Shown here: in pieces, positions 35,341-58,623 of the stretch
How positions within the stretch are numbered: position 1 is the first letter of the stretch
How the letters are laid out: the number at the start of each line of letters is the position of its first letter
Assembly (NCBI GenBank): GCA_948144175.1
Contig: CANXME010002654.1
Span: 1,302,001-1,366,000, forward strand
Origin: Closterium sp. NIES-65
Lineage: Eukaryota; Streptophyta; Zygnematophyceae; Desmidiales; Closteriaceae
Direction: 5' to 3'
DNA: 64,000 bases
The notes under the pieces: model-generated
What the model saw: the letters and a program-made list of their open reading frames with translations, nothing else
Told to the model about the DNA's origin: nothing
Databases searched by the model: none
Position numbers and translations under genes: made by a program

Positions 35341-35856
35341 GGTTCATTCAGCATCACACACGCCGTGTTTGACACGCACTCACATGCATCACACACGCCG
35401 TGTTTGACACGCACTCACATGCATCACACACGCCGTGTTTGACACGCACTCACATGCATCACACACGCCGTGTTTCACACGCACTCACATGCATCACACA
35501 CGCTGTGTTTCACACGCACTCACATGCATCACACACGCCGTGTTTCACACGCACTCACATGCATCACACACGCCGTGTTTCACACGCACTCACATGCATC
35601 ACACACGCCGTGTTTCACACGCACTCACATGCATCACACACGCCGTGTTTCACACGCACTCACATGCATCACACACGCCGTGTTTCACACGCACTCACAT
35701 GCATCACACACGCCGTGTTTCACACGCACTCACATGCATCACACACGCCGTGTTTCACACGCACTCACATGCATCACACACGCCGTGTTTCACACGCACT
35801 CACATGCATCACACACGCCGTGTTTCACACGCACTCACATGCATCACCGCGACATC
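35341..35856. repeat. 35-bp minisatellite
   Basis: About 15 head-to-tail copies of a 35-bp unit (GCATCACACACGCCGTGTTT followed by CACACGCACTCACAT), nearly perfect; the first three copies have TTTGAC where the rest have TTTCAC, and one copy has CGCTG. Because 35 is not a multiple of 3, all three + frames are open through the array, which mimics a gene. Confidence 0.95.
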
Positions 35857-36503: not shown

Positions 36504-39500
36504 TCAAAAGAACACAGCTGGCTCTCTAAACTCAGGCCGATCAATGCTGCATTCGTTACAAGGATACGCACAGTCAACCGATTTGGCTTCTGCCCCATCA
36601 TTATCCTCTTCGTGAAGCCAGAGACTGAAGGCCTGCGCCAGTGTCTGTCACAGGAAACCCAACACAGTTACTTGGCTGGAAACTACACTAGGTAAGTTAA
36701 CCATAACAAACCAAGCAGGAAATCAACTCACATGATTGGCAACGGTTAACTGCGACCAGAGGTCACTGTGGTACGCGGCGCAGTGGGCTAAACAAAGTAT
36801 ATGTTGAAGCGCCTCAAAAAGTGACTCACGTGATTGGCGACAGTGAGCTGCGACCAGAGGTCACTGTGGTACACGGCGCAGTGGGCTAAACAAAAGTATA
36901 TCTTGAAGCGCCTCAAAAAGTGACTCACGTGATTGGCGACAGTGAGCTGCGACCAGAGGTCACTGTGGTAGGTGGCGCAGTGGGCGAAGCAGGAGTAGAA
37001 GAACGCCCCGTGGGGGTCACTTGCTGCTAGGAACGGCTGCCACGACTCAAGAAGCGCTTGGCGGAAATCTGGAGGTTATAGCAAAGAATGGGTGTAGCAA
37101 CAGTGGAAAAGTGGGTGTAGCAAGAGGGGAAGAGTGGGTGTAGCAAGAGTGGAAGAGTGGGTGTAGCAAGAGTGGAAGAGTGGGTGTAGCAAGAGTGGAA
37201 GAGTGGGTGTAGCAAGGCGTGAGTGGAGCTGCTGCGAAAACGTTTTTGCCAGTCAGAGGAATGGCTTGCACTCGCCTTGGTGGACACACCTTGAATGATG
37301 GCCAGCTGAGCAGCTGTGCACGAGCGCACTCGATACAGGCAGTTCCGCAGCAGGTCACCAGAAGGGTCCGCATCCTCATTGGCTAGCAGAGCCAGTAGCT
37401 GTGGCAAAGGGAAGCGGCATACGTGTTCACATGTTTGCAGCCGCAATTTAGGCACTTACTATGATGGAGAGAGTTTGGGTAAGGAGAGGTGAGGGGAAGC
37501 AAGATAAAGGGTTGAGGACCAGTGGGGCATGTATGGCAGAGCAGTGGGGCATGTATGGCAGAGCAGTGGGGCATGTATGGCAGAGCAGTGGGGCATGTAT
37601 GGCAGAGCAGCGGGGCATGTCTGGCAGAGCAGTGGGGCATGTCTGGCAGAGCAGTGGGGCATGCATCGCAGAGCAGTGGGGTATGTATGGCAGAGCAGTG
37701 GGGCATGCATGGCAGAGCAGTGGGGCATGTATGGCAGAGCAGTGGGGCAAGTATGGCAGAGCAGTGGGCATGCATGGCAGAGCAGTGGGGCATGCATGGC
37801 AGAGCAGTGGGGCATGTCTGGCAGAGCAGTGGGGCATGCATGGCAGAGCTGTGGGGCATGCATGGCAGAGCGGTGGGGCATGCATCGCAGAGCGGTGGGG
37901 CATGTTGGCAAGTCTATTGGCAGAGTGGCAAGGGATAGTACAGAAGGGAAACCAACTAAGGGTGGGAAAACTGAGAAGATAAAGGATGGGAGAGTGGTTG
38001 GGTGGGTTGGAGGGCGGTGCGTGCGTACATTCCAGGAGTCATAGTTGCTGTTGACCATGAACACTCTGCTGCTCACATACGCCATGGCGTGGCGAGCAAA
38101 CACGCACTACAGCACACATGCACACACACCCACACACATGAAACAGGAAACCCTTGAGTTAACTCGAGTCACAGCATGGACTGCGGATGAAAACAGATTT
38201 GCGGAGGGAAACTGTTAGTTGTGAGACGCATGCTCTCTCACCTCCTCCCACATGTGACACGCATGCGCTCTCCTTGTACTGCCCGTGCTCACCTCGTACT
38301 GCCCGTCCTCACCTCGTACTGCCCGTGCTAACGTCGTACTGCCCGTGCTCACCTTGTACTGCCCGTGCTCACCCCTTTACATTCATACCACATGTGACAC
38401 ACATGCTCTCTCACCTCGTATTGCATGCTCTCTCACCTCGTATTGCATGCTCTCTCACCTCGTATTGCATGCTCTCTCACCTCGTATTGCATGCTCTCTC
38501 CTCGTATTGCATTCTCTCTCACCTCGTATTGCATTCTCTCTCACCTCGTATTGCATTCTCTCTCACCTCGTATTGCAGGTGCAGTGGGCGGGCGTTGATG
38601 CAGTGCTCACTCACTCCCCCGGCCATGTGCTGCACCGCACCACACCGCACCAAACCCTACCCCAACTCCACGTTAATAACCATTGTTCCCATACACACAC
38701 GGAGCATGGGGCTATGGCAGAGATAGGCGAGGCGAGGGAGGGCGCAAGGAAGAGGGTTTCGAGCAGAAAGGGTCGAGAGGGGCACACACTGATGACTAGG
38801 GTCGGCTAAAGACACTGTTTAAATGCCCAAACGAGGAACATTGAGGGATGAAGGCGAGAAAGCTGTCAAAATGAGTGACGGGAAGATGGACACTTGCTGG
38901 TGTGAGGGGGCAAGAGGTTGCGAGGGGGGGAAGAAGGCTGAGAGGAAGCAGAAGGGTTCGAGAGGAAAAGACGGGTGCAAGGGAAGCAGAAGGGTGCGAG
39001 GGAAGCAGAAAAATTGGAGGGAAGCAGAAGGGTGGGTGGCAGGGCATGACATGGAATTGGAAGACAGCCTGAAAGAGCTCCCTCGCTGTTGCCTTCCCAC
39101 CCAGGTCCTTCCTGGAAGAGGCAGACACAAGGGAGAGTGGAACGACGAAGAAGGTAGGTGGTACTCGTAAATGAGATTCCACCGATCATCATTCAAAACC
39201 CTGTAACATTTATAATCACATGAGCAGCCCAGGTGTGACACCCTCTACATACTAAGAAAGTATCTTATTTGCAAAGTACACCAATAGAATGATTAGATTA
39301 AGCATTTCTTGTGTGTTGTCTGTGGAAGGAAGGAAAGCAGCTGAGAAGGTGGGGAGGCGCATGTGAGTGCCAGGGAGGGGGGCATCTGTCAAGGTAAATG
39401 GGGGCATCTGTCAAGGTAAATGGGGGCATCTGTCAAGGTAAATGGCGGCATCTGTCAAGGTAAATGGCGGCATCTGTCAAGGTAAATGGCGGCATCTGTC

Positions 39501-42500
39501 AAGGTAAATGGCGGCATCTGTCAAGGTAAATGGCGGCATCTGTCAAGGTAAATGGCGGCATCTGTCAAGGTAAATGGCGGCATCTGTCAAGGTAAATGGC
39601 GGCATCTGTCAAGGTAAATGGCGGCATCTGTCAAGGTAAATGGCGGCATCTGTCAAGGTAAATGGCGGCATCTGTCAAGGTAAATGGCGGCATCTGTCAA
39701 GGTAAATGGCGGCATCTGTCAAGGTAAATGGCAGCATCTGTCAGACAGGCGAAGGCCGAGGGCGTGAGGGCAGGATGGATGTGGTCGCAGTGCAGAGGGA
39801 GACGAGGGGGGGAGAGGGAGGAGGGGGGGCGGTGGGTGTGTGGGTGTGTGGGGGAAGGGCGCGTGGGTGTGGGGAGGCACCTGTCGAGGAAGATGGCAGC
39901 ATCGGGCAGGCAGGCGTAGGCAGAGGGGGGCAGGGCGGGGAAGAAGGCGGCTCTGATGTGGTCGCAGTGCAGCAGCGCTGCTAGCCCCCCGGCAGAGCAC
40001 CCCGACACCACCACCTGCCGGTGGGTGGGATGGGCTTGGTGGTGTATGTTGCGTGTGCAAGCTTGTGAGTGTGAGTGTGCGAGCGAGTAAGCGTGCTTGT
40101 GGGCATGTGTGCGCGTGTTGGCATGTTGGCATGTGTCTGTGTGTTGGCAAACATATGTGGGTTACTGCATGGTACTGCATGTAAGTGCACGTGCACTCAA
40201 ATGTGTGTGCACGGAGCAGAGCACACCCACGTCCTCCGTGCTTGCCTGCTGTGCGTGGGCCAGTCGGTGCTGCAGGTGGTCAAAGATGGCATCGCGAATG
40301 GCTCGCCCGCGAATGAAGATGCTGCCCCCCTGCAGGTCGTGGAAGTAGCGGTGGGCAGCAGCGGTGGGCAGCAGCGGTGGGCAGCAGCGGTGAGTGGTGA
40401 GAGGAGAAAGAGAATGAAGATGTTGCCCCCTTGCCCGTGGAAGGAGAGATGAGCGGCGAGAGGAGGAAGCGAATGGATGGATGAAGGAGAGAAAGGGATA
40501 GCAGATGCACATGAAGCGTCGCAGAGGGTTGCATGAGCAGATGATGCATGGATCGAAGGCATGGATCGAAGGCATGGATCGAAGGCATGGATCGAAGGCA
40601 TGGATCGAAGGCATGGCTCGAAGGCATGGATCGAAGGCATGGCAAGAATTGCTCGTCAGCACTCACCCGCACTGAATCTCGCTGACCTGCACTCACCTGA
40701 ACTGAACCACACTGAACCGCACTGACCTGCACTGACCTGCACTCACCTGCACTCACCTGCACTGACCTGCACTGACCTGCACTGACCTGCACTGACCTGC
40801 ACTTACCTGCACTTACCTGCAGTTACCTGCACTGACCTGCACTGACCTGCACTTACCTGCACTTACCTGCACTCACCTGCACTCACCTGCACTCACCTGC
40901 ACGGGAAGAGGGTGGGTGCGGTGGCCAGCAAAGGACCCGCCATCGCAGTAAGCGAGCTTCACCATGTTCCACTCGTGCATGCCTGCCGTGGTGCATACAT
41001 GCATGCATGCACGCCATCATGGGTACATGCCACGGTGCATGCATGCATGCACATGGGTGCATACACACCATCGGGTTCTTCCGTGCACATCGATTGGGTG
41101 GGTGCAGAAACGGGTAGAGCCACGTGCATGCTCAAATCACAGCAGGCGGGAACAGCGACGTGCGCAAGTGGCGGGCAGGCCATAGGAGTTCAAGGCGTGG
41201 GGAACAAAAGGGTATTATGTAGGTGTGGTATGGTGTGCACGTGGGTAGGAACAGTGCATGCGAAGGGTTGTAAAGCAGGGAGAGCGTCAATTGGTCGGTA
41301 GTGGGCGGCACATGGGGTGGTGCGTGGGCACATGGGGTGGTGCGTGGGCACATGGGGTGGTGCGTGGGCACATGCATGGGTTGGCGGAGCAACGCACCTG
41401 GGTTGATTGCGGGGTCGTCACTGAACACGCCCTCAGCGTCAGCAGTGGCGGGTAGCAGGCGGGACGACCCCAGTGCTGTGAGGCTGCGCTGCCGACACTC
41501 CTCCCCGCTGCTGCACCACGCCCCGCCCTGTGCACACCCATACCCCCCACACTCCACGCCCATACCCCCCACACTCCACGCCCATCCCTCCCCCCTCCAC
41601 GCCCATGCTACCCCCTCCCCACATGTGCGAACAAGCAAGCATGTGAGAGAAAGTGGAGTGAGTTGAAGATGGGGTGACTGGAACTCAACTAACGTTCCCA
41701 GAAGATCAAATCTCGACTAAAGTGCGTTGCATACATGCCGGTGAATTCCCACCATGGCAGGTCCAGCAAGGCCAAGCAGCACGGAAGGCATGGCATGGCA
41801 TGGCATGGCATGGCATGGCAATGGCATGGCATGGCAATGGCATGGCATGGCATGGCCAGCAGCCGTTAAGAACGGGCAGCGGGGAAGTGACGGAGGGGAA
41901 AGAGAGGGAGGAGAGGTGAAAGAGAGGGGGGAAGAAGGAGAGAAAGAGGGAGGGGAAAAGAGGAGGGGAGTGGGAGAGAAAGAGGAGGAGAGAGGTGAGG
42001 AGAAAGGGGGAGAATGGGGGAGAGGGGGCGAGTGGGGGGGAGAAGGGTGGAGCGGGGGGGAGACGGGGGGAGAGGGGAGGAGAAAGGGGGAGAGGGCGGG
42101 AGAAGGGTGGAGAGGGGGGGAGAAGGGGGGAGAGGGGGGAAGAAGGGGGGAGAGGGGGGAAGAAGGGGGGAGAGGGGGGCGACCTGGAAGTGGAAGAACC
42201 ACTTGTGGGCGCCGCCTGCATGGCCCGGGCGGAAGTAGTAGGCCGGTGGTGACCTGTCCAAACACACTGTGGGGCAGGCAGGACGCGGGGGTGAGGGGAG
42301 GCCGTGGCACGCACACGGGTGTGTGTGAGGGGAGGATAGTGCAGTGTGTGTGAGGGGAGGATAGTGCAGTGTGTGTGAGGGGAGGATAGTGCAGTGTGTG
42401 TGAGGGGAGGATAGTGCAGTGTGTGTGAGGGGAGGATAGTGCAGCGACTGCGGTGCACTGCACCTCACACGCATGCACCTCACACGCATGCACCTCACAC

Positions 42501-43192
42501 GCATGCACCTCACACGCATGCACCTCACACGCATGCACCTCACACGCCATGCACCTGACAGCACAAGGGAGCGTCTCACCAGCCCCCACGGCCGCTGCCC
42601 CGTGCACCACCACCAGCCTCAGTGGCCTCGCCACCACTCCTGCTGCTGCTGCCGCCGCCGTCGTCGCCGCTGCTGCTGCTGCTACCGCCCGCGCCCGAAG
42701 TTCCTCCTTCGCGTTGCTCTCTGCTGCATTCTCGCCGCCCGCGTTCTCTCCGCCATTCTCGCTGTCGCCTTCCCCACGCCCAACTTTCGCCCCTTCCGCT
42801 GTCACCGCACTCCCCCCTCTGCTCTCCTCCCCCTCCCCCTCACTCCCCTTCCCCCGCACCGGTCGTTCCGCCGTGCCGTGCAACCCCTCGCTCGCACCGT
42901 CGCCCGCCTCCCTACCGCGCACGCCTGCGCGCTGCTCCCCCAGCCCGCCTGGCGCAGGTTCCGCCACCAGCAGAGTTGGCGCGGAAAGCGCGCGCCATCG
43001 GGAAAGGGCGAGCGCAAGGGCGAGGGCGAGCGCCGCAAGGACGAGGAGCAGTGTGGCGGGGGGACGGAGGGCCGTCGCCGAGGGACACGTGGCGAGCGAC
43101 TGCGATCGAACGTATCGCACATGGTGTCGCATGGCATCGCAGAGTGGTTCAGGCAAGCATGCCGACGCTCGAGTGTGGTGTCTCTGTTCCAA
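36504..43192 (-). CDS. Pectin acetylesterase (Notum/PAE family), 12 exons
   Basis: Predicted 573 residues. Exons: 42580-43192, 42184-42266, 41398-41527, 40897-40982, 40246-40329, 39881-40014, 39051-39111, 38567-38629, 38029-38106, 37290-37398, 36929-37068, 36504-36644; every junction keeps frame. Removes acetyl groups from pectin in wall or Golgi. Family blocks in order: VCLDRSPPAYYFRPG, HKWFFHFQGGAWC, INPGMHEWNMVKLAYCDGGS, IFIRGRAIRDAIFDHL, SGCSAGGLAALLHCD, ARHAMAYVSSRVFMVNSNYD, GAFFYSCFAHC, CAYPCNEC. Catalytic triad by family comparison: Ser339, Asp441, His510. A basic N-terminus, a hydrophobic segment (46-63) and a 130-residue Glu/Gly/Ala-rich stem precede the domain, suggesting a type II membrane protein; Met21 is an alternative start. 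Intron 5 uses a GC donor and introns 7 and 9 have weak donors (GTCATG, GTACGC). Confidence 0.93.
36732..37027 (-). repeat. 3' half of esterase exon 11 in three tandem copies
   Basis: Segments beginning at 36732, 36830 and 36929 (+ strand) are 98-99 bp apart and nearly the same. On the - strand each holds the coding end of exon 11 (residues AHCATYHSDLWSQLTVANH or close) with the donor GTGAGT. The two downstream copies are preceded by a plausible acceptor (TTTGTTTAG), so they could act as extra exons. Confidence 0.88.
37091..37225. repeat. 23-bp repeat in esterase intron 10
   Basis: About six copies of GTGGGTGTAGCAAGAGTGGA (+ strand) with length variation, in the short intron between exons 10 and 11. 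Confidence 0.88.
37515..37905. repeat. 22-bp minisatellite in esterase intron 9
   Basis: About 17 copies of a unit such as GTGGGGCATGTATGGCAGAG plus CA. Variants TATG, CATG, TCTG and one copy lacking a G are interspersed. It creates long artefact frames on both strands (His/Ala/Cys/Pro-rich or Gly/Ala/Gln-rich). Confidence 0.93.
38275..38580 (-). repeat. Esterase intron 8: tandem copies of the exon 8 splice donor
   Basis: On the - strand exon 8 ends TGCAATACGAG with donor GTGAGAG. The next ~160 bases repeat TGCAATACGAGGTGAGAGAG as 22-bp units (about 8 copies, one shortened). After a short gap come five 20-bp units of the related AGTACGAGGTGAGCACGGGC (38275-38375). Each unit contains exon end plus donor. 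Confidence 0.9.
39383..39805 (-). repeat. Esterase intron 6: copy of exon 6 end, its last 22 bp amplified
   Basis: Around 39725-39805 the - strand encodes LHCDHIHPALTPSAFACLTD followed by AAIYLDR, a diverged copy of the exon 6 end (PSAYACLPDAAIFLDR). The final 22 bases of that copy (GATGCCGCCATTTACCTTGA + CA) then repeat about 17 times, almost perfectly, down to 39383. Confidence 0.9.
40540..40645. repeat. 13-bp repeat in esterase intron 4
   Basis: About eight copies of GGCATGGATCGAA (one with GCTCGAA). A separate 13-bp repeat, GCGGTGGGCAGCA, lies at 40350-40392 just upstream of exon 5. Confidence 0.88.
40690..40902 (-). repeat. 10-bp array of splice-donor consensus in esterase intron 4
   Basis: Exon 4 ends GTGCAG with donor GTGAGT. 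On the - strand the following ~210 bases are about 20 tandem 10-bp units GCAGGTGAGT, GCAGGTAAGT or GCAGGTCAGT. The unit is exactly the exon end plus donor; at least four units match the full consensus CAG/GTAAGT. Confidence 0.93.
41286..41375. repeat. 20-bp repeat in esterase intron 3
   Basis: Four copies of CACATGGGGTGGTGCGTGGG. A related smaller unit (CATGCATG) lies near 40990-41060 at the far end of the same intron. Confidence 0.88.
41788..42180. repeat. Simple repeats in esterase intron 2
   Basis: 41788-41856 is (GGCAT)n/(ATGGC)n; 41895-42180 is a GA-rich tract with 12- to 14-bp units such as GGGGGGAGAAGG. On the transcribed (-) strand the latter is a very long pyrimidine tract. Confidence 0.88.
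42310..42555. repeat. Two minisatellites in esterase intron 1
   Basis: 42310-42440: five to six copies of 25-bp GTGTGTGAGGGGAGGATAGT + GCAGT. 42466-42550: six copies of 15-bp CACCTCACACGCATG. They lie between exon 1 and exon 2 of the esterase. Confidence 0.9.
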
Positions 43193-43885
43193 ACCTCGCC
43201 TGGGTCTTATACGCGTCAGAGAACGATGGATTCGATAGCGTAATTGTCTCCATGTATTATAGTTGAAGTACGTATGGACCTCTTGGGCATCGGGAGTTGG
43301 GTCGCTAAAAATAAAATAAACTACCGGTAATAATAATAAAAATAAAAAGCAGGGAGAAACAAAAATTGCAGCGCTTCCTATATTTTTCTAAGAAGAAATT
43401 CGTGAGGTGCATGGCGTGTGCATTGCTGGTAGGCATTTTCTAAAAGAAAGGCGCCTAATCCGTTATGTCGCTTTGCACAACTTTTGAGGGCTCTTGTGTT
43501 AATAAGCAAGAAAGTGTAGAGATTACACAAATTCAGTTCTGTAAAGCAGACAAGAATCTTAACACGTTATCGAAGCAGCTTTATGTGCATTGACGTCAAA
43601 CCTCCTCCCTGTCGACCAGCGCATTCATCGCGACATTCACTCTCGCATATCGCTCCACCGCCCTCGTTAGCTCTCGCCCCTCCGCACTCGCGACTGCCCC
43701 CTCCTCCTTACCGTCGCGCTCCTCGCACGTCCCCTCCGCCCGCCGTCGCCAGCCTCGCGCGGCACCTCCGCGGCAGGCGCAAGTTGGCCAGAAGCCCGCT
43801 TGCTGACCGCTCTGCGAAACGCCGCACTACCAGGTTGGTGGCCCCTCCCTAGCGCGCCACCTCTGCGTCTTGTAAGATTCTCGCG
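43193..43885. other. Divergent intergenic region, esterase side
   Basis: Between the start codons of the esterase (-) and eIF4E (+). 43260-43570 is AT-rich with A-rich runs and is a good candidate for core promoter DNA of the esterase; 43590-43880 is C-rich. No TATA box can be assigned with confidence. Confidence 0.4.
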
Positions 43886-44252
43886 CCCGCTCATTCCCCG
43901 CCCGCTCATTCCCCGCCCGCTCATTCCTCGCCCGCTCATTCCCCGCCCGCTCATTCCCCGCCCGCTCATTCCCCGCCCGCTCATTCCTCGCCCGCTCATT
44001 CCCCGCCCGCTCATTCCCCGCCCGCTCATTCCCCGCCCGCTCATTCCCCGCCCGCTCATTCCCCGCCCGCTCATTCCCCGCCCGCTCATTCCCCGCCCGC
44101 TCATTCCTCGCCCGCTCATTCCCCGCCCGCTCATTCCTCGCCCGCTCATTCCCCGCCCGCTCATTCCCCGCCCGCTCATTCCCCGCCCGCTCATTCCCCG
44201 CCCGCTCATTCCTCGCCCGCTCATTCCTCGCCCGCTCATTCCCCGCCCGCTC
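43886..44252. repeat. 15-bp minisatellite upstream of eIF4E
   Basis: About 24 copies of CCCGCTCATTCCCCG, some with CCTCG. Since 15 is a multiple of 3 it keeps frames open on both strands (IPRPL or MSGRG / NERAG repeats). A looser 15-bp family, CCCTCTCATTCGTCG, follows at 44285-44390. The position suggests promoter or 5' untranslated DNA. Confidence 0.95.
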
Positions 44253-44551
44253 GATCGCGCCCTTCCCCCTCCCCCCCCCCCACCCGCTCATTTGTCGCCC
44301 TCTCATTCGTCGCCCTCTCATTCGCCGCCCTCTCATTCGTCGCCCTCTCATTCGCCGCCCTCTCATTCGCCGCTCTCTCATTCCCTCCCGCTCATCCGCT
44401 CTCGCAGAATGCCACACTACGCGTGCAGCGTTGTGTTTTGAGTTCTAGGAGGGCCACCCGCCCGTACGGCGTGCTCACTTCTCTCATGCGTCCGTTGTTC
44501 ATGTGCTCATCTTCTCTCTCGCTCTCTGCACCGCCCTCTTCCCCCACAGCT

Positions 44552-47500
44552 ATGACGGTTGACCCCGCCCCCCTCGCTCCCTCCCCCGCTCCACCCTCTG
44601 CCGCCGTGCCTGCACAGCCCGCCACAGGCCCAGGCGCTGCAGAGCAAGGGGGCCCCGAGGCAGAGGGCAAGGGGAGCGCGGCAGCAGCTGAGAAGGGCAC
44701 GGATGAAGCATGGGGGCCCAAGGGGGAGGTGGCGGGAGCAGAGGGAGAGGAGGAGGAGGGAGGAGAAGCAGCCGGAGGAGCAGCGGGGACAGCAGCAGCG
44801 GCGGCGGAATCGGCAGCAGCAGCAGTAGCAGTGAAGCACCCGCTGCAGCAGCGGTGGACGCTGTGGTTTGACAACCCGCACCAGCGCGGCAAGAGTGGCG
44901 GGTGGGGCACGTCCATGCGCCTCATCTACACCTTCGGCACCGCTGAGGACTTCTGGAGGTGACGCCCGCTTAGCTTACCACATGCCATGCCACACCTTAA
45001 AGCCCAGCTGGAGGTCTCTGCTTCACTCCACGCATGTGCTGGTATGCCTTCTCTGAACGCCACGCATGTGCTGGTATGCCTTCTCTGAACGCCACGCATG
45101 TGTGATACAAGAGTGGCGGGTGGGCCACATCCATGCGACAGCCTGCAGGTCCACACCTCCGGCACCGCCTAGGGCTTCTGGAGGTGCGGGGGTGCCGGCC
45201 CGGCCATGCCACGCGTGAGTCGTGTGGAGATGCGATGCCATGGTTGAGTGTTGTTGAGATTGAGGGCGCGTCGCGCCTTGAAGCGTGTGTGAGAATGCCT
45301 TCACTCCACTCTAGGCTCGAGCAACACCCGGGAGGGACCGTGTTCTTTCATGGCACCCGGCACCGTCACGACTTCCTGCCGTGCGACGCTTGAGTCGTCT
45401 CGATATTGAGGGCGAGTCATGGGGCTGAAACCATGTGTCCGTATGCCTTCTCGCTACTCCATACGCATGTTCAGAACACTTCCTACTCTTGTTTCTTCCT
45501 TGCCATGCCTGGTCTCTAGCTTCACAACCTGTGCCTCTCTCTCAAGCTCATCTGACACGTGCTCTGAAATCCGCTTCATCTCTTACTCCCCTCTTCCTTT
45601 TGATCTTGCAATGTCTCTCACCCACCCTCTCATCTCCAGACTGGGCACCAACCAACACACCGTTTTCCGCGTGCATTGCAACCTTCTCCATGACCTAACC
45701 TGCCTCAACCCAAAGTCCCCCTCCATCCCCTCCTCCCCTCCCCGTTCCTTCCCCCCTCCCTCCCTCCTGCTCCCCTCCCCCTTTCCCCCTTCCCTCTCAC
45801 AGCTTGTACAACAATGTGACGTCAGCAGCAACACTGCCCCCCAGGATGGACATGCATCTGTTCAAGGAGGGCATCGTGCCCAAGTGGGAGGACCCGCAGT
45901 GCGAGAAGGGCGGCTCCTGGACCGTCTTCTGCCGCACCAAGGACATGTTTGACCACGTGTGGCTCAATGTGGTGAGTGTGGCTCAATGTGGTGAGTGTGG
46001 CTCAATGTGGTGAGTGTGGCTCAATGTGGTGAGTGCTGCACCAACGACATGTTTGACCAAAATGTCCAAATCTCCAATTGAGGATTTGAAGGGACTGTGT
46101 TGTTGGCATCTTCCCTGCAGTTCCTTTAGAATAGGTTTTTAGCGAGTTAATCCCATTCCCTTAAACACCAACAGCTGTGCCCACTCCTTGTTCTCCCACT
46201 ATGTTGCCCGCTGTGTGTGTGGCTGCCCCCCTTCCCCCCCCGCCCCTCATGGAACGGCTATTGGCAGTGATAGGCGAGCATGTCACAGAAGCGGGCGACA
46301 TGTGTGGGGTGGTGGCCAATGCCCTCTCTCTCTGTTGTCACACCAACACCTCTGTGGCCCATTTCTTGTTTTTCCTCCACTGTGTGGCCTGCTGTGTGTG
46401 TGGCTGTGCTCCCCTCTTCTGCAGCTGCTGGCGCTGATAGGAGAGCAGTTCACAGAGGCGGGCGACATCTGTGGCGTGGTGGCGAACGCTCGGCCCAACA
46501 AGGACCGAGTGGTGCTGTGGACCAAGACTGCCAGCAACGAGGCAGTGCAGGTGGGTGGCAATGGTCAACTCATGTCCATCCACGCACGATGCGTACTAGA
46601 TGGCAGGGAGTTTCTGAGGATTCTCAGATTCACCTCGGAACCAGAAAGGTCAAAGGTAGCCTCAGCCTTGATACTCCTGTTCCCAGGGCGCTGCAAAGGC
46701 ATCTGCCACCGGGCGGAGTGGGAGGGCTGAATGCAGCTGCGTTGTAACTTGACTTGGCTGGCTCAATGGCTGTCGACGATGTTGACTTGGCAGTGATTGC
46801 TACTGCTGCGAGTGCTACTGCTGCGAGTGCTACTGCTGCGAGTGCTACTGCTGCGAGTGCTACTGCTGCGATTGCTACTGCTGCGAGTGCTACTGCTGCG
46901 AGTGCTACTGCTGCGAGTGCTACTGCTGCGAGTGCTACTGCTGCGAGTGCTCCTGCTGCGAGTGCTACTGCTGCAATTGCTACTGCTGCGAGTGCTGCTG
47001 CTGCGATTGCTACTGCTGCGAGTGCTACTGCTGCGAGTGCTACTGCTGCGAGTGCTACTGCTGCGATTGCTACTGCTGCGATTGCTACTGCTGCGAGTGC
47101 TACTGCTGCGATTGCTGCTGCTGCGATTGCTACTGCTGCGACTGCTGCGATTGCTACTGCTGCGAGTGCTACTGCTGCGATTGCTACTGCTGCGAGTGCT
47201 ACTGCTGCGATTGCTACTGCTGCGATTGCTACTGCTGTGATTGCTACTGCTGCGAGTGCTACTGCTGCGATTGCTACTGCTGTGAGTGCTACTGCTGCGA
47301 TTGCTACTGCTGCGAGTGCTACTGCTGCGAGTGCTACTGCTGCGAGTGCTACTGCTGCGATTGCTACTGCTGCAAGTGCTACTGCTGCGATTGCTACTGC
47401 TGCGATTGCTACTGCTGCGATTGCTACTGCTGCGATTGCTACTGCTGCGAGTGCTACTGCTGCGATTGCTACTGCTGCAAGTGCTACTGCTGCTAGTGCT

Positions 47501-48560
47501 ACTGCTGCGATTGCTACTGCTGCGATTGGTAGTGCTGCGATTGCTACTGCTGCGAGTGCTACTGCTGCGATTGCTACTGCTGCGAGTGCTACTGCTGCGA
47601 GTGCTACTGCTGCGATTGCTACTGCTGCGAGTGCTACTGCTGCGAGTGCTACTGCTGCGATTGCTACTGCTGCGAGTGCTGCTGCTGCGAGTGCTACTGC
47701 TGCGAGTGCTACTGCTGCGAGTGCTACTGCTGCGAGTGCTACTGCTGCTGTGCTACTGCCACTGCAGCAACGCTGGAGCAGGACATCATATCATGCCCTG
47801 CTGGTGGGGCCATGCCCTGGTGGTGGGGCCATGCCCTGCTGGTGGGGCCATGCCCTGCTGGTGGGGCCATGCCCTGCTGATGGGGCCATGCCCTGGTGGT
47901 GGGGCCATGCCCTGCTGGTGGGGCCATGCCCTGCTGGTGGGGCCATGTCCTGGTGCCTCTGCTGACGGAATCCTTCCGTGTTGCTAAGCTTAGCCTCCCA
48001 CTCTGACTCTCCCTCTCACTCCCCCTCTCACTTCCCCTCTCACTCACTCTCTTCTCGTGCAGGTGAGCATCGGGAGGCAGCTCAAGGAGATCAGTGGCAT
48101 TACAGACAAGATTTCATATTCCTCCTTTGTAAGACCCCACCTCGCCCCACGCATTCTCACTTTCCGAGTCTTCTCACGAGCACCTAAACCCGAAACCCTT
48201 GTCCGATGCCTTTCTTACAGTTGACTCCTTCCGTCCTTCTCTTTGCTTGCTGTTGCTGGCCATGAGGCTTGTCAAGTCCCGTATCTGCCATTCATGTGCC
48301 TTATTTACATGTCCTCTTCATTCGACAGCCTTTCAACCTGCTTGGCACCACAGGCTGCACCACAGGCTGCACCACACAAAGCCATCGCGTCACTCAGCAT
48401 CGCACTGTCGCATTTCCTTCACCTCTCATCGTCCCTCATTACTGCAGTGTGTCATATCACATCCCCCATCTGCTCTCTGTTCATCTTGTTTGTGCATTCT
48501 GGTCATTCTCAGAACGATCAGAAGTTTTCATCGAAAGCCAGCCAGGGATATGTTGCTTGA
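44552..48560 (+). CDS. eIF4E: Translation initiation factor eIF4E (cap-binding), 5 exons
   Basis: Exons: 44552-44958, 45803-45971, 46425-46550, 48063-48128, 48513-48560; donors GTGACG, GTGAGT, GTGGGT, GTAAGA and AG acceptors, frame kept throughout, 271 residues. It binds the mRNA 5' cap and eIF4G to start translation. Family landmarks: HPLQQRWTLWFDN (first conserved Trp), IYTFGTAEDFWSLYNN, GIVPKWEDP (cap-stacking Trp and the Glu that contacts the base), GGSWTVFC, LLALIGEQF, VVLWTKTASNE, NDQKFSSKASQGYVA at the C-terminus. Residues 1-95 are a Pro/Ala/Glu/Gly-rich tail, longer than usual. An upstream in-frame ATG at 44486 would add 22 residues; a 5' intron ending CCCCCACAG just before 44550 is possible. 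Closer assignment to eIF4E or eIF(iso)4E is not certain. Confidence 0.93.
45107..45192 (+). repeat. Partial copy of eIF4E exon 1 end within intron 1
   Basis: AAGAGTGGCGGGTGGGCCAC followed by ATCCATGCG ... CGGCACCGC ... CTTCTGGAGGTG closely follows the last ~75 bases of exon 1 and its donor (44886-44962). It has gained a stop (TAG) and substitutions. A weaker trace may exist near 45355-45390. Between them, 45030-45100 repeats ACGCATGTGCTGGTATGCCT. Confidence 0.82.
45957..46060 (+). repeat. eIF4E exon 2 splice donor in four tandem copies
   Basis: The 19-bp unit GTGTGGCTCAATGTGGTGA, which spans the last coding bases of exon 2 and its GTGAGT donor, occurs at 45957, 45976, 45995 and 46014. Directly after, 46034-46060 repeats the preceding exon segment (TGCTGCACCAACGACATGTT). 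The first donor gives the frame that joins exon 3; use of the second or third would add 19 or 38 bases and shift it. Confidence 0.93.
46166..46335 (+). repeat. Partial copy of eIF4E exon 3 upstream of the real one
   Basis: CTATTGGCAGTGATAGGCGA and the following bases encode LLAVIGEHVTEAGDMCGVVA, close to the true exon 3 start LLALIGEQFTEAGDICGVVA. The intron DNA before both copies is also alike (ACACCAAC ... GTGTGTGTGGCTG). The copy lacks a good acceptor and diverges after VVANA, so it is more likely a relic than an alternative exon. Confidence 0.87.
46797..47757. repeat. 15-bp minisatellite in eIF4E intron 3
   Basis: About 64 copies of TGCTACTGCTGCGAG / TGCTACTGCTGCGAT over ~960 bp. The alternation of GAG and GAT copies is irregular. 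It keeps + frames open (Ala-Thr-Ala-Ala-Ser/Ile or Leu-rich) and should not be taken for a gene. Confidence 0.95.
47795..47950. repeat. 19-bp repeat in eIF4E intron 3
   Basis: About eight copies of CTGCTGGTGGGGCCATGCC with CTGGTGG variants. Confidence 0.9.
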
Positions 48561-48750
48561 AGCACCACTGTGCCACTGACCACAAGCGTATAGGATTGCA
48601 ATGATGCATTGCATGTTGACATACCGTAGTTGCTGTTGCTGCAATCTACAAGCAGGTTTTATTTATGTTTTTTGCAAGGCCAAGGCCAACGGTTCTTATT
48701 CATGAGATGGACCAATATTCGTCATTAAAATGTTTATGTTCACACTGAAA
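48561..48750. other. 3' flank of eIF4E
   Basis: AT-rich sequence after the stop codon, presumably the 3' untranslated region. It runs to the TA target site of the pogo/Tigger element. Confidence 0.45.
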
Positions 48751-48752
48751 TA

Positions 48753-48776
48753 CCGTCATCGCCCGGATATAAGACA
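48753..48776 (+). repeat. Left terminal inverted repeat of the pogo/Tigger element
   Basis: CCGTCATCGCCCGGATATAA followed by GACA; exact inverse of 53975-53998. The inner flank also repeats TAAGACATATATGTCTTAT near 48824-48842 and 53964-53982. Confidence 0.93.
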
Positions 48777-48961
48777 GTGTTGAATAGTAGCCTTTTTATA
48801 TGACACCTATTTGTGTGTACGAGTTAAGACATATATGTCTTATAATCAGAACCGGGGTTTAGGGGTTTTCTTATAAACAGGGGGTGTCTTCTAAACGAGC
48901 CTTGCTTACTTTAGGGGGGTACATGCATACATTCATGAATCTCTACTTCTACCTAACCCCC

Positions 48962-50549
48962 CTAAGTCACCGCCTCCTCGCCTGCGCTAACAACAGGCTC
49001 CACATCTAGGTCTGGCACTCGCCAGGCATGCCTAGTCGTCTCCCTAGGCTCGATCATGCGGTCAGCCTCGGCCGCCGCCCCGCGGTAGTTGGGGGTCTCC
49101 TGGTACAGCACCTCCAGGCCGGTTGCCACGGCCACCTCCCGCACGCCCTCCGCCTGCATCGCCTCCTCCTCCTCCTCTGGAGCCCGACCGAGCAGGCGCG
49201 TGTTGTCGCCTGTGGTCCCCCCGAGGGACATGTTCGCGGAGACATCGGTGGTGCTCCTGGCGCGCAGGTGAGACATCACCAGGTGGTTCTCCGTTCCGTC
49301 CAGCTTGCTTGAGATCCCACAGTGGCGGAACGCGTCGATGATGATCTGCTTCGGGACTTGATCCCAAGCCTTCGCGATCCACTGCAGCACCACGGGGTGC
49401 GGCGGCCTCCGCAGGTTCCCTGCGGGTGGGTTTGAGGATGGGCAGCGAGATGTTAGAGAGACGGACATGAAGGAGCATGTTTAAGACAAGGACAGGAAAC
49501 AGAACAGGAATAATATCGTAAATGAAGGACCAACTCACCCTTCTTCGTCTTCAGGTGAATCCCCTCACGCATGAACCACCTGGCGTAGCGCGCTCGCACA
49601 GCAGCCTTGAAGCACCGGTTGATTGAGACGTCCGGGGGTTGAATCTGGCTCGTACAACCCGCTGGGATGACTGCAGGGGTGATGCTGTGCGTGCGGTACG
49701 ACTGAAGCATGGTCTGGGTGATGTGACCGCGGTAGGAATCCAACACCAGCATCGCACGCCTCGCGTTCTGGCCGCGCTGGGGGTTCAGAAGGGGCAGCAC
49801 CTCCTTGGACAGCCAGGTCTGCACAGCACTCTCGTCCGTCCACCCGTTGTCCTGTGCTTGGACCACGATTCTTGCCAGGCACACAAGGGACAGACGGGCT
49901 TCAACACAGTGGGGCACGCTCATCAGGCAGACGCACGGTTGAATTCATTACGCTTACCTTCCGGAATCTCACAATTGGGGACGTTCTTCATCTTGAACCA
50001 CACCCACGGCCGCAGCTTCTCCCCGGATGCAGTGCACGCGAGCATCACCGTCAAGCGCGTTTTCTGGTAGCCTGCAGTGCGGATTGGGACCGAGCGCGCG
50101 CCGCGGTGCTCGATCGTCCGTTCGGCTGGCATCTCCACGAATAGTGGAGTCTGGTCCGCGTTGATGATGCGGGCCAGGTCGATGTTGTGCCGCGCCCTGT
50201 TGATGCGCACGAACTTCCAGAAGGACTCGCAGTCCTTCGGGCACTCTGCAAACGGTACACGCGCAACGGAAACACGGGATGGTTAGACACTGGGTGAGGG
50301 ACATGCATTCAATAGCCCGCGCGAGACACGAATTCCTTCAACACGCACCCGCCGACAGTCGTTGGCCGACCTTGGTCTTCACCCGCATCACCAGGTTCCA
50401 GCGGTCACGGAAACGCTGGCTCTAGTGAGAGCTCGCGTTCCAGTTCTTGCCGGCGTGATGCTTCTTCATCCACTCGCAGCTCCACTTCTGAGTGTCCTTC
50501 ACCGAGATGGCCACCCCGTTAGCGCGCTGAAGGCAGATGTGGCAGTACA
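48962..50549 (-). pseudogene. Transposase, C-terminal part with DDE domain
   Basis: From 50549 down: YCHICLQRANGVAIS and WSCEWMKKHHAGKNW, a TAG at about 50422, then FRDRWNLVMRVKTKVGQRLS. After a probable small intron: CESFWKFVRINRARHNIDLA, INADQTPLFVEMP (first Asp), TVMLACTASGEKLRPWVWFK; after another: MLVLDSYRGHITQTML (second Asp), IPAGCTSQIQPPDVSINRCF (third Asp, the pogo/Tigger signature), and a last part VPKQIIIDAFRHCGISSKLD with a Glu-rich tail ending at 48962. All three catalytic Asp are kept. This is the DDE_1/CENP-B-related family. Confidence 0.87.
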
Positions 50550-50767
50550 TGTCAAATATAGGAGGAGTACGGCCTAGGCTTAGTAGCCTAGGCCACAGTA
50601 GGACTAGAACGAGGAGGCGCCAAGTACAAGCTAGGAACGTGTGCACGAACAGAATTGAGAAGAGATGATTGAACTAGCAAGCAGCAGGATACAAATAGCA
50701 AACCTTAAGGGGCTGTACTCACTATTGAGTGCCCCATTGCAGGCTACACAAACAACATATTCTGACA
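50550..50767 (-). repeat. N2 3' LTR
   Basis: 218 bp; + strand TGTCAAATATAGGAGG to CATATTCTGACA. Confidence 0.93.
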
Positions 50768-50786
50768 CACCCCCATAGCCAAAGTG

Positions 50787-51637
50787 GGGTGTAATCAGCA
50801 CAATGAGCAGGCAGTGCAATAGTTCAAAATTATGAGCAAAGCTAGTGGTAGTCACAGCAGGCAAGTGATGACAAGGAGGGACTGTGAGAGGAGAGAAGAT
50901 GGGAGACGACGGCTGAAGCTGCAGACACACGGGCAACAGGAGCGGCTGGCACAGTGGCTAACGGGACAGCGCCTCAGACTATTAGAGTAACTGGCTCACG
51001 GGCTACGAGGAGCTACACGAGCAACGGACCCATGGGCGATAGGCGCAGCAGGCTCTCTGGGCTACCAGGACAGCGCCCCGGACTACAGGTGTTGCCGACG
51101 ACAAGACGGCTGCCTCCACTCAACCTCCCCCAACTGTCCCACACCCCCCTACACACACCCCCAGTTTCACCCCTAGCTCCACTCCCACATCACCCCCCTA
51201 GCTCCACTCCCCACAGCTCCCACACCTCCACCCCCCTCAGCGGCAGCTGCAGCAATGGGAGACGAAAAAGGGGGAGGGGAGAACCCACACCTCTCACCCC
51301 CATGCTTGCCACCCCACACCCCCACCACCGCGGAACGCACGGCGGAATGGGAGCAATGGGCAGCACGGGGGGGGGGAGGGGGAACGGGACGGGCTTCCGC
51401 AGGGGCGGCTCGCGCGGGTCCTGGGGCGGCTGCTGCAGGCACGGGCTGCTCCAGGGGCGGCTGCTGCAGGCACGGGCTGCTCCAGGGGCGGCTGATGCAG
51501 GCACGGGCTGCTCCAGGGGCGGCTGCTGCAGGTGCGGGCTGCTCCAGGGGCAGCTGCTGCAGATGCGGGCTGCTCCAGGGGCGGCTGCTGCAGTGGCGGG
51601 CGGCTCCAGGGGCGGCCGCTGCAGGTGAAAGGTAGGA

Positions 51638-51640
<3 letters not shown>
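50787..51640. other. N2 internal region, non-coding
   Basis: 50787-51240 has no recognised content. 51425-51630 is a 24- to 30-bp repeat built on GGGCTGCTCCAGGGGCGGCT (about 7 copies), followed by a run of more than 30 G with one exception at 51640-51671. No gag, pol or tRNA-like gene is seen. Confidence 0.65.
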
Positions 51641-51671
<31 letters not shown>

Positions 51672-51672
<1 letters not shown>

Positions 51673-52200
51673 AACTCACGGCCCCCAGGGCGCCCCGAGG
51701 GGCGACGAGAAGGGAACCGCGCGGCCCCCCCCTGGGGCGCCGCGACGGGCACCAGGGAGGGCGCCGCGATGGGCCCCCAGAGCCGCCTCGACGGGCGACG
51801 GGGAGGGCGCCGCGCGGGCCCCCCGAAGTCGCCTCGACGGGCGACGAGGAGGGCGCCGCGCGGGCCCCCCAAAGTCGCCTTGACGGGCGACGGGAGGGGA
51901 CCGCGTGCGGCCCCCGTGGTCGCCACGACGGGCGATTGGTGGGGAGGCCGCGCGGGCCCCCAAGGTCGCCTCGACGGGCGACGGGAGGGGAGGCCGCGCG
52001 GGTCCCCAAGGTCGCCTCGACGGGCGACGGGAGGGGAGGCCGCGCGGTTCCCCGAGAGCGCCTCGACGGGCGCTTCGACGGGAGGAGACCGCGGAGGCCC
52101 CCCCAAGGGCACCACGACAAGCGCCACGGAAGGGAAAACCGCCAGGCGCCCCGAGCGCGCGGCGGGCAGAAATTAGGGTTTCGCCGCCGCGCACCACGGG
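51672..52200. repeat. N2 GC-rich leader array
   Basis: About ten imperfect 45- to 60-bp units with core GTCGCCTCGACGGGCGACGG. The core CGACGGGCGACGG is shared with the N1 array although the LTRs are unrelated. Confidence 0.85.
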
Positions 52201-52254
52201 GCGCGCGGCGGACACTGCGGCAGCGGAAGCGGGTGGTGGGCCCATACACAGGAA

Positions 52255-52283
52255 GGCGGCAGACATGCCGCCCTCTGATACCA
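52255..52283 (-). promoter_or_regulatory. N2 primer-binding site and hairpin
   Basis: On the - strand TGGTATCAGAG (52273-52283) abuts the LTR and is followed at once by GGCGGCA / TGCCGCC (52255-52272), a perfect 7-bp stem with a 4-base loop, then by GGGCCCACC a little further on. Confidence 0.85.
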
Positions 52284-52501
52284 TGTCAAATATAGGAGGA
52301 GTACGGCCTAGGCTTAGTAGCCTAGGCCACAGTAGGACTAGAACGAGGAGGCGCCAAGTACAAGCTAGGAACGTGTGCACGAACAGAATTGAGAAGAGAT
52401 GATTGAACTAGCAAGCAGCAGGATACAAATAGCAAACCCTAAGGGGCTGTACTCACTATTGAGTGCCCTACTGCAGGCTACACAAACAACATATTCTGAC
52501 A
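52284..52501 (-). repeat. N2 5' LTR
   Basis: 218 bp, nearly identical to 50550-50767. Confidence 0.93.
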
Positions 52502-52506
52502 GTACA

Positions 52507-53382
52507 ACGCTGCCTCCATGTTGGGGTAGTGTGAGTGGCGCCCCCCCCCCCGTGCATCTGCTTGCGGCGCGCCCTTGTAGACGCCCGCAGCCGCCTCCGC
52601 ACTCCAGCGACTGATGCAGGCGATGGACGCGGTTGACTCCACGTTCGTCTTCTTCAAGGAGCCAAGCTCCGGATAGCAGCGCGCCCACTTGCTTCTCACG
52701 TACTGTCCAACCACGGCGCTTCCTCGTAGTGTCCTTGCTGCGAGGGGAAGGGGCCTTAGCAGGGGCTTTAGCAGGGGCTTCCGCAACTTTGGCTTTTCCC
52801 TTCTCCGCAGCGGTGAGTTTCGGGCGACGCTCCTCCCCCGGACTGTCGTCGTCAGAGAGCACCACGCGGGCCCGCTTCGACTTGGACTATAAGCGATGGC
52901 GCAGCCTCCGCTTCAGTAGCGGAACGTCGTCGTCTGTCCCAAGGCTCCATGGGTCGTCGTCGCTGCTTTCACCGTCAAATAAGACGGCATCCGCAGCAAC
53001 CGTGTCCGACTCTGCCACAGCATCCGCATCCGCAACTGCGGCCGCGCCGTCTTAAGCCTCCTCATTCGCATCCATCGCCGCTTCCTGTGAATCCGCCGCT
53101 GCCTCTGCGTTGTCACTATTCGCATTTTCACCTCCGTCGTTGTCCGAATCTCTAGCCCGCCACTCTTCCACCTTGTCGTCGCTCCCGACCGGCCGATTCC
53201 ACCATTCGTCCTCCTCGATGTCGGCAGGACCTAATTCGTCACCCGAAGTGCTGTCGTCGTGGCCGTTCCCCGGCCAATCCTCCTCAGCGTCGTCGCCGTT
53301 CGCTTCTTCTCCGTAGTCCCCGTCACAGCTCGCACCGGAGGCCGCGGTAGGACTTCCCGCCTTACTCGCGTTCTTTGCCATG
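52507..53382 (-). pseudogene. Transposase, N-terminal acidic and DNA-binding part
   Basis: From the ATG at 53382 (MAKNASKAGSPTAASG) runs a very acidic region (EEANGDDAEEDWPGNG, DDSTSGDELGPADIEED) to a stop at 53052. The same style continues to about 52920 (SSDDDPWSLGTDDDVPLL), another stop, then a basic segment SKDTTRKRRGWTVREKQ and, in another frame, a helix-turn-helix-type end GRHSHYPNMEAALY that leads into the N2 insertion site. The family normally has such a CENP-B-like domain before the DDE region. The stops and frame change indicate decay. Confidence 0.72.
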
Positions 53383-53974
53383 GCTACACGAATGTCATCG
53401 CCGGGCGAGTTAATTCGCCCGTGGTTATTCACCTGCACGTGAGGACGAGGAGAGGACGAGCCTGGGGGTACTTTGCTGCGCATGGTTAGAAAGCCTGCCG
53501 AGAGCAAGGTTGAGACGAGTATTCCTAAACCCTTGAGCACCAAATGAAGTGAGAGGCCGACTACCCCCCCCCAGCCAGAGTGCCCCATCCACAAGTGCCG
53601 AGCCGCTCCTCTACGCGGCATCTCCTCGTAGAGGACAGCCCTCACGCTGCCAACGTGCTGCTAGCAGCGTTCTGGAAGCATCCCTGCGCTGCTGGCAGCA
53701 AAACGACGCTGGCAGCATCATTAGATGCTGCCAGCACAGAGGAATATTGCCAGCGGTGGCAGCTCCCTCACGTGGCAAGTGTGGGCGCTGCATGCATCAC
53801 CACCGAGGTCGGCCTGTTTCAATGAATCTGGTCTCTGGGTGTTTTCTACACACTTTGCAAGTGTTACAGTCAACTTAAAAAATTTTCCATTTATAAGACT
53901 TATAAGACACCCTATACCATCCCGTTTACAAGATAACTCAAGCATTTTTGCCCGTGTATGAGATAAGACATATA
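53383..53974. other. Pogo/Tigger 5' non-coding end
   Basis: Sequence between the transposase start and the right inverted repeat. 53640-53740 repeats CTGCCAGCA / CTGGCAGCA several times. No other feature. Confidence 0.5.
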
Positions 53975-53998
53975 TGTCTTATATCCGGGCGATGACGG
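53975..53998 (-). repeat. Right terminal inverted repeat of the pogo/Tigger element
   Basis: TGTCTTATATCCGGGCGATG then ACGG, exact inverse of the left end, followed by TA. Confidence 0.93.
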
Positions 53999-54000
53999 TA

Positions 54001-54845
54001 TCATACTGTAACCCCTCCGCATAAAATACCTCCCATAAAGAGTCATATCCATTCAAGTAAGTAAAAAAGTGTTTTGAAATCAGACCATGAACTCTTATGA
54101 TAACAAGAGCCCTGTTTTTGGCGACTTCAAGTTCAAAAATCTTGAACTTGAATAATACCATGTTGTTTTCGGGCTTTAGGCATTTCAAGAATACTAATGC
54201 CCGTACTACCCAGTCCAGGCATTTCGAGATAAGCTTTTCTCAGGATTCGGATGAGCAGCTTCATTCATTGCGATTGTTCAAAGTCCATTCTCTCGCGTGA
54301 GTTGAACTCCGTTTCACTCCTCATCCCCCACCTTGTCCACCTTCTCCTCCCCCCCGTCCGCCCGACCACACATTTCTTCTTCCTCCTCCCTTCTTGCATT
54401 CCCATCTCTGCCACCCACTCCATACCCAAACCCCAGTCCGCACGTGAAACAACTCACTAGCCCTGCCTTGGTGCGCACATAGTGCACCTGGGTTGATAGG
54501 GCTTCCAGATGCTGCCACACACACGCCGGGAAATGTTGGATGGACATGAGTGAGGCGGGGGTAATGAAAAAGAGGGAAGAGTGGGTGGGAAAGACCGGGC
54601 AGAAAAGTTGGGATGACTAAGATTTGGTGGGAAAGAGTGGATGGCAGAAAGGGACAAGATTGGGAGGAGCGATGGGAAAGAGTGAGGACAAAAGGGGGAC
54701 AGAAATAGAGAGGCTCAAATGCTTCGCCGTAGTGAGAAGGTGAGGGAGAGGAGAGTGGGTGAGAACGAAATAGATGGAGTGGAAGCTGAAAGGGGTGGGA
54801 AGTGACGCTTGCAGCATGAGTTGTGGGAAGGATATTGTACGCGAG
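54001..54845. other. Intergenic, nothing recognised
   Basis: AT-rich to 54290, then pyrimidine- and purine-rich tracts. A few words (CACCTGGGTTGAT near 54487) resemble the edge of esterase exon 3, too short to call a copy. Confidence 0.4.
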
Positions 54846-54849
54846 GAAG

Positions 54850-55155: not shown

Positions 55156-55273
55156 AATGAAAGGAAAGAGGAAAGCAGCAAGGAGGCAGGGAATGGAGAT
55201 GGAAGAGAGAGTGACGGAAGGAGAGAGGAAGTGATGGAGGACAGGAGGGGAACAGAGTACAGAAAGGGCACGG

Positions 55274-55405: not shown

Positions 55406-55406
55406 T

Positions 55407-56599: not shown

Positions 56600-56604
56600 C
56601 ACGG

Positions 56605-58618: not shown

Positions 58619-58623
58619 GTTTC

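Follow-up and report, generated by a model that had tools for sequence, protein, structure and literature searches.

The window, the whole 64,000-nucleotide stretch of Closterium sp. NIES-65 DNA analyzed here, contains two adjacent genes with open models. The pectin acetylesterase (PAE) gene (PF03283; 36504..43132, reverse strand) has 12 exons (exons 1 to 6 at 43132-42580, 42266-42184, 41527-41398, 40982-40897, 40329-40246, and 40014-39881; exons 7 to 12 at 39111-39051, 38629-38567, 38106-38029, 37398-37290, 37068-36929, and 36644-36504) and encodes 553 amino acids with a Pfam PAE domain (E = 1.5e-94). The eIF4E gene (PF01652; 44552..48560, forward strand) has five exons (44552-44958, 45803-45971, 46425-46550, 48063-48128, and 48513-48560) and encodes 271 amino acids with a Pfam IF4E domain (E = 1.4e-50). 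The PAE of the window is a close match to the NIES-65 gene model and matches the NIES-64 model P0076 at 99%, and the eIF4E model matches P0001 of Closterium sp. Naga37s-1 at 98% over 94%. The sole match of the Closterium eIF4E in genome contigs, L001 (a MAG labelled Euryarchaeota; 48% identical), was set aside.

Annotated PAE proteins of NIES-64, NIES-65, and Yama58-4 use the first donor at exons 4, 6, 8, and 11, as do the eIF4E proteins of three Closterium at exons 1 and 2, and these gene models suggest that the first donor is also the one used in mRNA. The joins at the exons bearing border arrays match those of Yama58-4, NIES-68, and other Closterium proteins, with no sign of a new intron in this protein-level comparison. 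The three PAE models disagree at exon 1/2 and at the exon 2 donor, where P0076 (NIES-64) is joined differently and P0078 (NIES-65) runs through intron 2. The NIES-64 model of PAE exon 1 uses a different donor, 25 nt farther downstream and on the margin of a 15-bp array. The exon 1 join retained here gives the family-conserved “VCLD”; the 25-nt alternative, which would have added one more donor-crossing array, was left out.

Tandem arrays are present in all 15 introns (25 arrays once overlapping TRF rows are merged); arrays take up 51% of intronic bases and 5.5% of exonic ones. Outside the gene pair, coverage is 13.5% of window positions 1-36500 and 17.9% of 48560-64000. Given their presence in every intron and their coverage of half of the intronic sequence, arrays are a general feature of these introns, and most are not border derived.

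Copies of exon-intron borders

Border copies were detected with TRF, BLASTN of exons against genes, and/or direct alignment. All seven repeats listed by a first-pass annotation of this DNA (esterase exons 4, 6, 8, and 11 and eIF4E exons 1 to 3) were found again by these methods, with BLASTN E values within gene regions of 1e-5 to 1e-36, save for one array at PAE exon 8. That annotation described exon ends plus donors tandemly copied into introns. This describes six of the seven cases, with the qualifications that the eIF4E exon 3 copy comes from the acceptor side, that BLASTN covers just 3 intronic bases of the eIF4E exon 1 copy, and that the exon 6 units carry AT in place of GT. Its further statement that introns were lengthened by duplication, leaving many donor-like sites behind, is also supported.

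In PAE, all of these repeats lie on the reverse strand. The exon 4 donor array (40659..40902) consists of 24.4 copies of a 10-bp unit that joins the final 6 coding bases to the first 4 of the intron, and GT is retained in 20 of 23 downstream units. At exon 6, a 67-bp copy of the exon end and donor (39708..39774; 79% identical) has GT changed to AT, and on this copied, dead border stands a 22-bp array of 16.5 copies (39381..39743), exceeded in copy number among donor-derived arrays only by that of exon 4. Its donor position is AT in 16/16 matched units; a working donor was therefore not needed as a trigger for expansion. The exon 8 donor array (38402..38577; 22-bp unit, 8.1 copies) reaches 11 bp across the donor and retains GT in 6 of 7 downstream units. 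A second, donor-like array at this exon (38267..38373; 20-bp unit) gave BLASTN matches weaker than 1e-3 and is assigned on the basis of 18/21 positions matching the junction, with GT retained in 4 of 5 matched units. The exon 11 donor array (36726..36985) has a 98- to 99-bp unit in 2.6 copies, counting the real exon end; the nearer of the copies downstream spans 105 bp at 92% and the farther 69 bp at 87%, and both retain GT.

The eIF4E repeats are on the forward strand. A downstream copy of the exon 1 end with its donor (45108..45186; 79 aligned columns, 82%) retains its single GT, and a possible third, older copy near 45350-45390 (score of 15 over 39 columns) was not counted. The exon 2 donor array (45957..46035) comprises 4.2 copies of a 19-bp unit, 100% identical, reaching 15 bp across the donor with GT retained in 3/3. 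It is followed by a 26-bp copy (46034..46059; 92%) of the exon 2 sequence that adjoins the 19-bp unit upstream in the exon, which is a remnant of a longer duplication predating the 19-bp array.

Two copies derive from acceptor borders, and both lie upstream of the original. The eIF4E exon 3 copy (46182..46322, forward strand) takes in intron end and exon in similar amounts, about 65 bp each; BLASTN recovers 66 bp at 82% (46257-46322), and gapped alignment adds the stretch of about 65 bp from the end of intron 2. The PAE exon 5 copy (40412..40457, reverse strand; 49 columns, 78%, E = 1.7e-5) was absent from the first-pass list. The homologous AG has become GG in the former and AA in the latter, so that AG is lost in both acceptor copies (n = 2 only), whereas most donor copies other than those of exon 6 still have GT.

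Donor and acceptor borders compared

Border-derived cases number eight, six donor and two acceptor, among the 30 coding-intron borders of the two genes. A strict flag, requiring a BLASTN match with at least 4 intronic and 3 to 4 exonic bases, marked five donors and one acceptor, all in direct orientation; the eIF4E exon 1 and exon 3 copies failed it (3 and 1 intronic bases, respectively) and were included after alignment. Left out of the count were C-rich or alanine-codon-rich low-complexity matches (in PAE, those of exons 1, 2, and 6 to the array of intron 2; in eIF4E, those of exon 1 to the array of intron 3, to intron 1, and to itself), an inverted, 65%-identical match (E = 5.5e-4) over the acceptor of PAE exon 3, and matches confined to intron sequence close to exon 11 of PAE and exon 3 of eIF4E.

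By our own classification, 6/15 donors and 2/15 acceptors were copied (Fisher p = 0.21; binomial p = 0.29), and duplication is thus not confined to donors. Four arrays cross donors (by 6, 11, 15, and 57 bp), against 0.74 to 0.92 expected under random placement in introns (P = 0.004 to 0.009), and none crosses an acceptor, against the same expectation per side (P of zero = 0.38 to 0.46); donor and acceptor crossings combined give P = 0.042 to 0.091. Iterated border arrays number five at donors and none at acceptors (Fisher p = 0.042). These donor-excess tests are post hoc and were made on two genes picked for showing the pattern. The 25 intronic arrays as a whole have no donor-proximal bias (13 nearer the donor and 12 nearer the acceptor; sign test p = 1). 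Iterated arrays are limited to donors in these two genes. The border copies themselves exceed chance; a donor preference of border duplication is only suggestive.

The first-pass annotation had proposed a directional duplication process at 5' splice sites. As worded, this is not supported: acceptors are copied too, arrays in general do not favor donors, and the exon 6 array grew where GT was dead.

Origin of the border copies

The repeats are probably “mirage”-type minisatellites, produced by ordinary local duplication and minisatellite expansion and filtered by splicing. The copies, their positions, and their surviving GT or AG are read directly from the DNA; from these we infer a mutational step, slippage or microhomology-mediated duplication, and a selection filter. 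Where a genome tends toward local tandem duplication and minisatellite expansion, segments straddling borders would be duplicated now and then. A copy wholly inside an exon would alter the protein and be lost, and one crossing a border could be tolerated as intronic sequence. After duplication at a donor, the original exon end and splice site would remain foremost, allowing normal splicing despite many identical downstream donors, and the array could then grow freely via unequal exchange or slippage. After duplication at an acceptor, the upstream AG, if intact, would probably be chosen first, spoiling the mRNA, such that only AG-decayed single copies would last. This explanation is favored by the presence of border copies on both sides, the spread of arrays through every intron, the exon 6 array on its dead GT, the contrast between lost AG and mostly retained GT, and the first-donor joins of the annotated proteins. 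It is also favored by published amphioxus mirages, which are described as spliced normally and as having the same anatomy at 5' and 3' borders alike (PMC3087553). Against it, a pure model of random duplication plus filter does not by itself predict the excess of donor crossings, the PAE models of the three strains conflict at exons 1 and 2, and AG loss is based on two copies.

That excess, like that of iterated arrays, would be explained if duplications started preferentially at exon/donor borders and introns grew outward from the donor, for example, because of the repeat-like AG|GT sequence or of transcription- or splicing-linked breaks. Hints of polarity point the same way: in PAE exon 11 the nearer copy is the more similar, and identity of exon 4 units to the junction unit drops with distance (rho = -0.41, p = 0.050). 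The eIF4E exon 2 border has also undergone at least two rounds, leaving the 19-bp array and the decayed copy of the adjoining exon piece. We nevertheless regard such a donor-directed process as unlikely, if possible, in view of the two acceptor copies, the lack of donor proximity among all arrays, and the expansion at exon 6 on a dead border. Strand skew is mixed (9 of 26 arrays G rich and 17 C rich on the sense strand), with no R-loop-type G-skew to support a cause of that kind, and tandem-repeat density in green-algal introns is reported to be U-shaped, rising at both ends (PMC3887541).

The repeated donors could themselves be functional, as alternative 5' splice sites, as sources of new in-frame exon sequence, or as parts of nested introns resembling stwintrons. 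Many of the donors copied downstream remain intact, the next one at PAE exon 11 follows after 99 nt, in frame and with no intervening stop (33 residues), and in Lipomyces, [D] stwintrons have been proposed to arise by duplication of the donor (PMC7138796). We consider this improbable, as unit lengths of 10, 19, 20, and 22 bp are mostly frame-shifting and the annotated proteins of three strains take the first donor at the border-array exons. It is very improbable that an assembler made or miscounted the copies, even though they were viewed in one assembly and minisatellites are prone to miscounting, since mis-joining reads of a single locus cannot yield copies diverged to 78 to 92%, with GT or AG decayed; the intronic stretches of the NIES-65 protein P0078 also equal the window in all four strings compared, although these may come from the same assembly and are not independent.

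Comparison with known systems and significance

The minisatellite explanation places the Closterium repeats beside the amphioxus mirages, described in Adh3, globins BflGb6 and BflGb9, TnC, and PGBD5. There, units are 10 to 72 bp (Adh3) and 150 to 160 bp (globin), 5' and 3' borders are both hit, many copies carry AG/GT, and undisturbed splicing is proposed (PMC3087553; PMC3902484). Both systems involve minisatellite-like tandem duplication with a unit spanning the exon-intron border (in Closterium, four donor-crossing arrays plus displaced border copies), the amphioxus unit sizes bracket the 10 to 99 bp of Closterium, both border types are copied, and many but not all copies keep their splice signals. 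The lineages differ, a chordate versus a streptophyte green alga, and Closterium has iterated arrays at donors only, whereas BflGb6 is described with one at an acceptor border. Length polymorphism and somatic instability are amphioxus traits, Closterium being known from one assembly and gene models.

In the Rogers model, introns are gained by AGGT-bearing tandem duplication, with examples given in vertebrate ATP2A1, fission yeast (24-bp units), and potato RdRp (PMC4974935). Splice-site sequence is likewise tandemly duplicated there, across an existing intron-exon border in the potato case, but in Closterium existing introns are lengthened and there is no sign of a new one, the original donor holding the frame in gene models. 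Lipomyces [D] stwintrons share a donor sequence duplicated at the intron 5' end; their duplications of 4 to 7 nt lead to nested introns, whereas the Closterium border segments are 10 to 99 bp and known from DNA alone. In Chlamydomonas and Volvox, tandem repeats are densest in introns, near intron-exon junctions, although that survey counts repeats by position and, in its available part, leaves any origin of units from borders unstated. Among the literature matches listed, which mostly exclude subscription papers, none reports border-derived minisatellites in an alga by title or abstract. The Closterium case is a dense new example of the published mirage anatomy, not a new process.

Were donor-biased border duplication pervasive in Closterium, which we hold to be doubtful, introns would be lengthened by repeated copying from the exon/donor border, giving intron alleles that differ between strains, tandem arrays of intact 5' splice sites in competition, and now and then an exon extended in frame (as at PAE exon 11, by 33 residues), and the genus would be a natural test of spliceosome choice among identical donors. 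As natural arrays of near-identical 5' splice sites, the repeats described here offer a setting in which splice-site choice could be measured. They also serve as a warning to annotators, because gene models of these strains take intronic repeats for protein. Mirages were described in lancelets and offered there as raw material for and a route to new introns; the idea of raw material for introns or exons is therefore already in print for amphioxus (PMC3087553). With such copies now seen at 8 of the 30 splice borders of a neighboring gene pair, in an alga that stands close to land plants, mirages would seem to be a consequence of introns rich in minisatellites and not something peculiar to lancelets.

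Host genes and neighbouring elements

The pectin acetylesterase gene (PAE; 36504..43132, minus strand) was rebuilt from sequence as 12 exons encoding 553 aa (Pfam PAE match, E=1.5e-94), and the adjacent, divergent eIF4E gene (44552..48560, plus strand) as 5 exons encoding 271 aa (Pfam IF4E match, E=1.4e-50). Among the matches listed, the closest proteins are from Closterium: P0076 of NIES-64 for PAE (99%) and P0001 of Naga37s-1 for eIF4E (98% over 94%). PAE matches P0077 of Yama58-4 at 81% and P0078 of NIES-65 at 100% over 62% of the query; no NIES-65 protein was named among the eIF4E matches listed. P0076 and P0078 differ from the rebuilt model near exons 1 and 2. P0078 reads through PAE intron 2 and into an upstream 15-bp array (33.7 copies, 43884-44395) that separates the two genes; the model takes this array as the protein N-terminus, so it is probably misannotated at its 5' end. 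The four P0078 strings tested are exact translations of the window, which therefore comes from NIES-65 or something very close to it; they carry no weight as an independent assembly check. The modelled PAE exon 5 donor is GC (CAGCAG/GCAAGC, 40245-40246), and this join is common to the NIES-64, NIES-65 and Yama58-4 proteins. In P0009, a second Naga37s-1 eIF4E model considered alongside 45108-45186, exon 1 is missing; the model opens with a short unrelated peptide, which might stem from a decayed exon 1 copy, joined to exon 2, and it overruns the exon 3 donor.

Beyond the PAE 3' end lies a near-perfect 35-bp array (14.2 copies at 99%, 35351-35847), and a run of 31 G (51641-51671) adjoins a GC-rich 31-bp array. 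A Copia-type retrotransposon (11767-17259) contains an 1830-aa open frame with RVT_2 and integrase domains; it has an inverted relative at 59097-63096 (94% over 4 kb) and more diverged relatives at approximately 20-33 kb (80-86%). Other retrotransposon fragments encode RNase H and H2C2 integrase domains (7162-8355) and an integrase core (18760-19554).

Tandem arrays and copied borders

After merging of overlapping TRF rows, PAE and eIF4E contain 25 intronic arrays and one exonic array, with at least one array in each of the 15 coding introns. Arrays cover 50.8% of intronic versus 5.5% of exonic bases, and 13.5% (1-36500) and 17.9% (48560-64000) of sequence outside the genes. Several reading frames are open on each strand of the eIF4E intron 3 array (15 bp, 64.6 copies, 46798-47759), with ORFs of up to 405 aa, which makes the array a trap for gene prediction.

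Every exon with 40-bp flanks was searched against its own gene and matches were aligned; low-complexity and inverted matches were left out, and the eIF4E exon 1 and exon 3 copies were counted only once aligned. Donor borders are copied into the neighbouring intron at PAE exons 4, 6, 8 and 11 and eIF4E exons 1 and 2, and acceptor borders at PAE exon 5 and eIF4E exon 3. The first-pass annotation had listed seven such repeats; its eIF4E exon 3 copy is present but of acceptor-side origin, which was not indicated, and the PAE exon 5 copy was missing.

The 10-bp unit at PAE exon 4 comprises six exon and four intron bases, and GT is intact in 20 of 23 downstream units. At PAE exon 8, 22-bp units (GT intact in 6/7) are followed by 20-bp units (4/5). 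Three more exact copies follow the eIF4E exon 2 donor, and after them comes a 26-bp duplicate of the exon stretch directly upstream of the array unit; at least two rounds of duplication therefore occurred at that border. Of the two copies at PAE exon 11, the closer one is 92% identical and the more distant one 87%, and the next donor lies in frame, 99 nt downstream. At PAE exon 6, the exon end has been copied as a 67-bp segment (79% identical) with AT in place of GT, and a 22-bp array is built on this segment. As AT is common to all 16 matched units, this copied border was most likely already dead before amplification. In both acceptor copies, alignment shows that the homologous AG is gone (AA and GG).

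Possible donor bias

The counts are no more than suggestive of duplication directed to 5' splice sites, with P values that are optimistic because the window was chosen for showing the pattern: homologous copies occur at 6/15 donors versus 2/15 acceptors (Fisher p=0.21), iterated arrays (2.5 or more copies) at 5/15 versus 0/15 (p=0.042), and arrays physically cross four donors and no acceptors, against 0.74-0.92 crossings expected per side from random placement of founding units (P=0.0039-0.0093 for four or more donors, 0.0073-0.019 for four or more on either one side and 0.042-0.091 for four or more in total). Array position overall is even (13 closer to the donor, 12 to the acceptor), with eight arrays ≤25 bp from a donor and five from an acceptor. 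Sense-strand skew of the 26 arrays is mixed (17 C-rich, 9 G-rich).

Splicing as a proposed filter, and known repeats

On the most economical reading, local tandem duplication and minisatellite growth happen everywhere, and selection on splicing determines which copies survive. With a donor-side copy, the original donor keeps its place in front. An acceptor-side copy retaining AG would be reached by the splicing machinery before the original acceptor. This would explain why donor copies remain intact and are able to iterate and the two acceptor copies are single and dead. In annotated proteins, the exon join falls at the first donor of the border-array exons in three strains for PAE and three for eIF4E. 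Annotation of the C. psl complex genomes drew on RNA data (PMC10407611). Duplication plus filtering does not wholly cover the excess of donor crossings, and a donor bias in duplication is possible.

Intron tandem repeats of Chlamydomonas and Volvox cluster towards both intron ends (PMC3887541). Given this and the 'mirage' minisatellites described at amphioxus exon-intron borders (PMC3087553, PMC3902484), the Closterium border copies are a dense case of an already described phenomenon, and what is new is the lineage.
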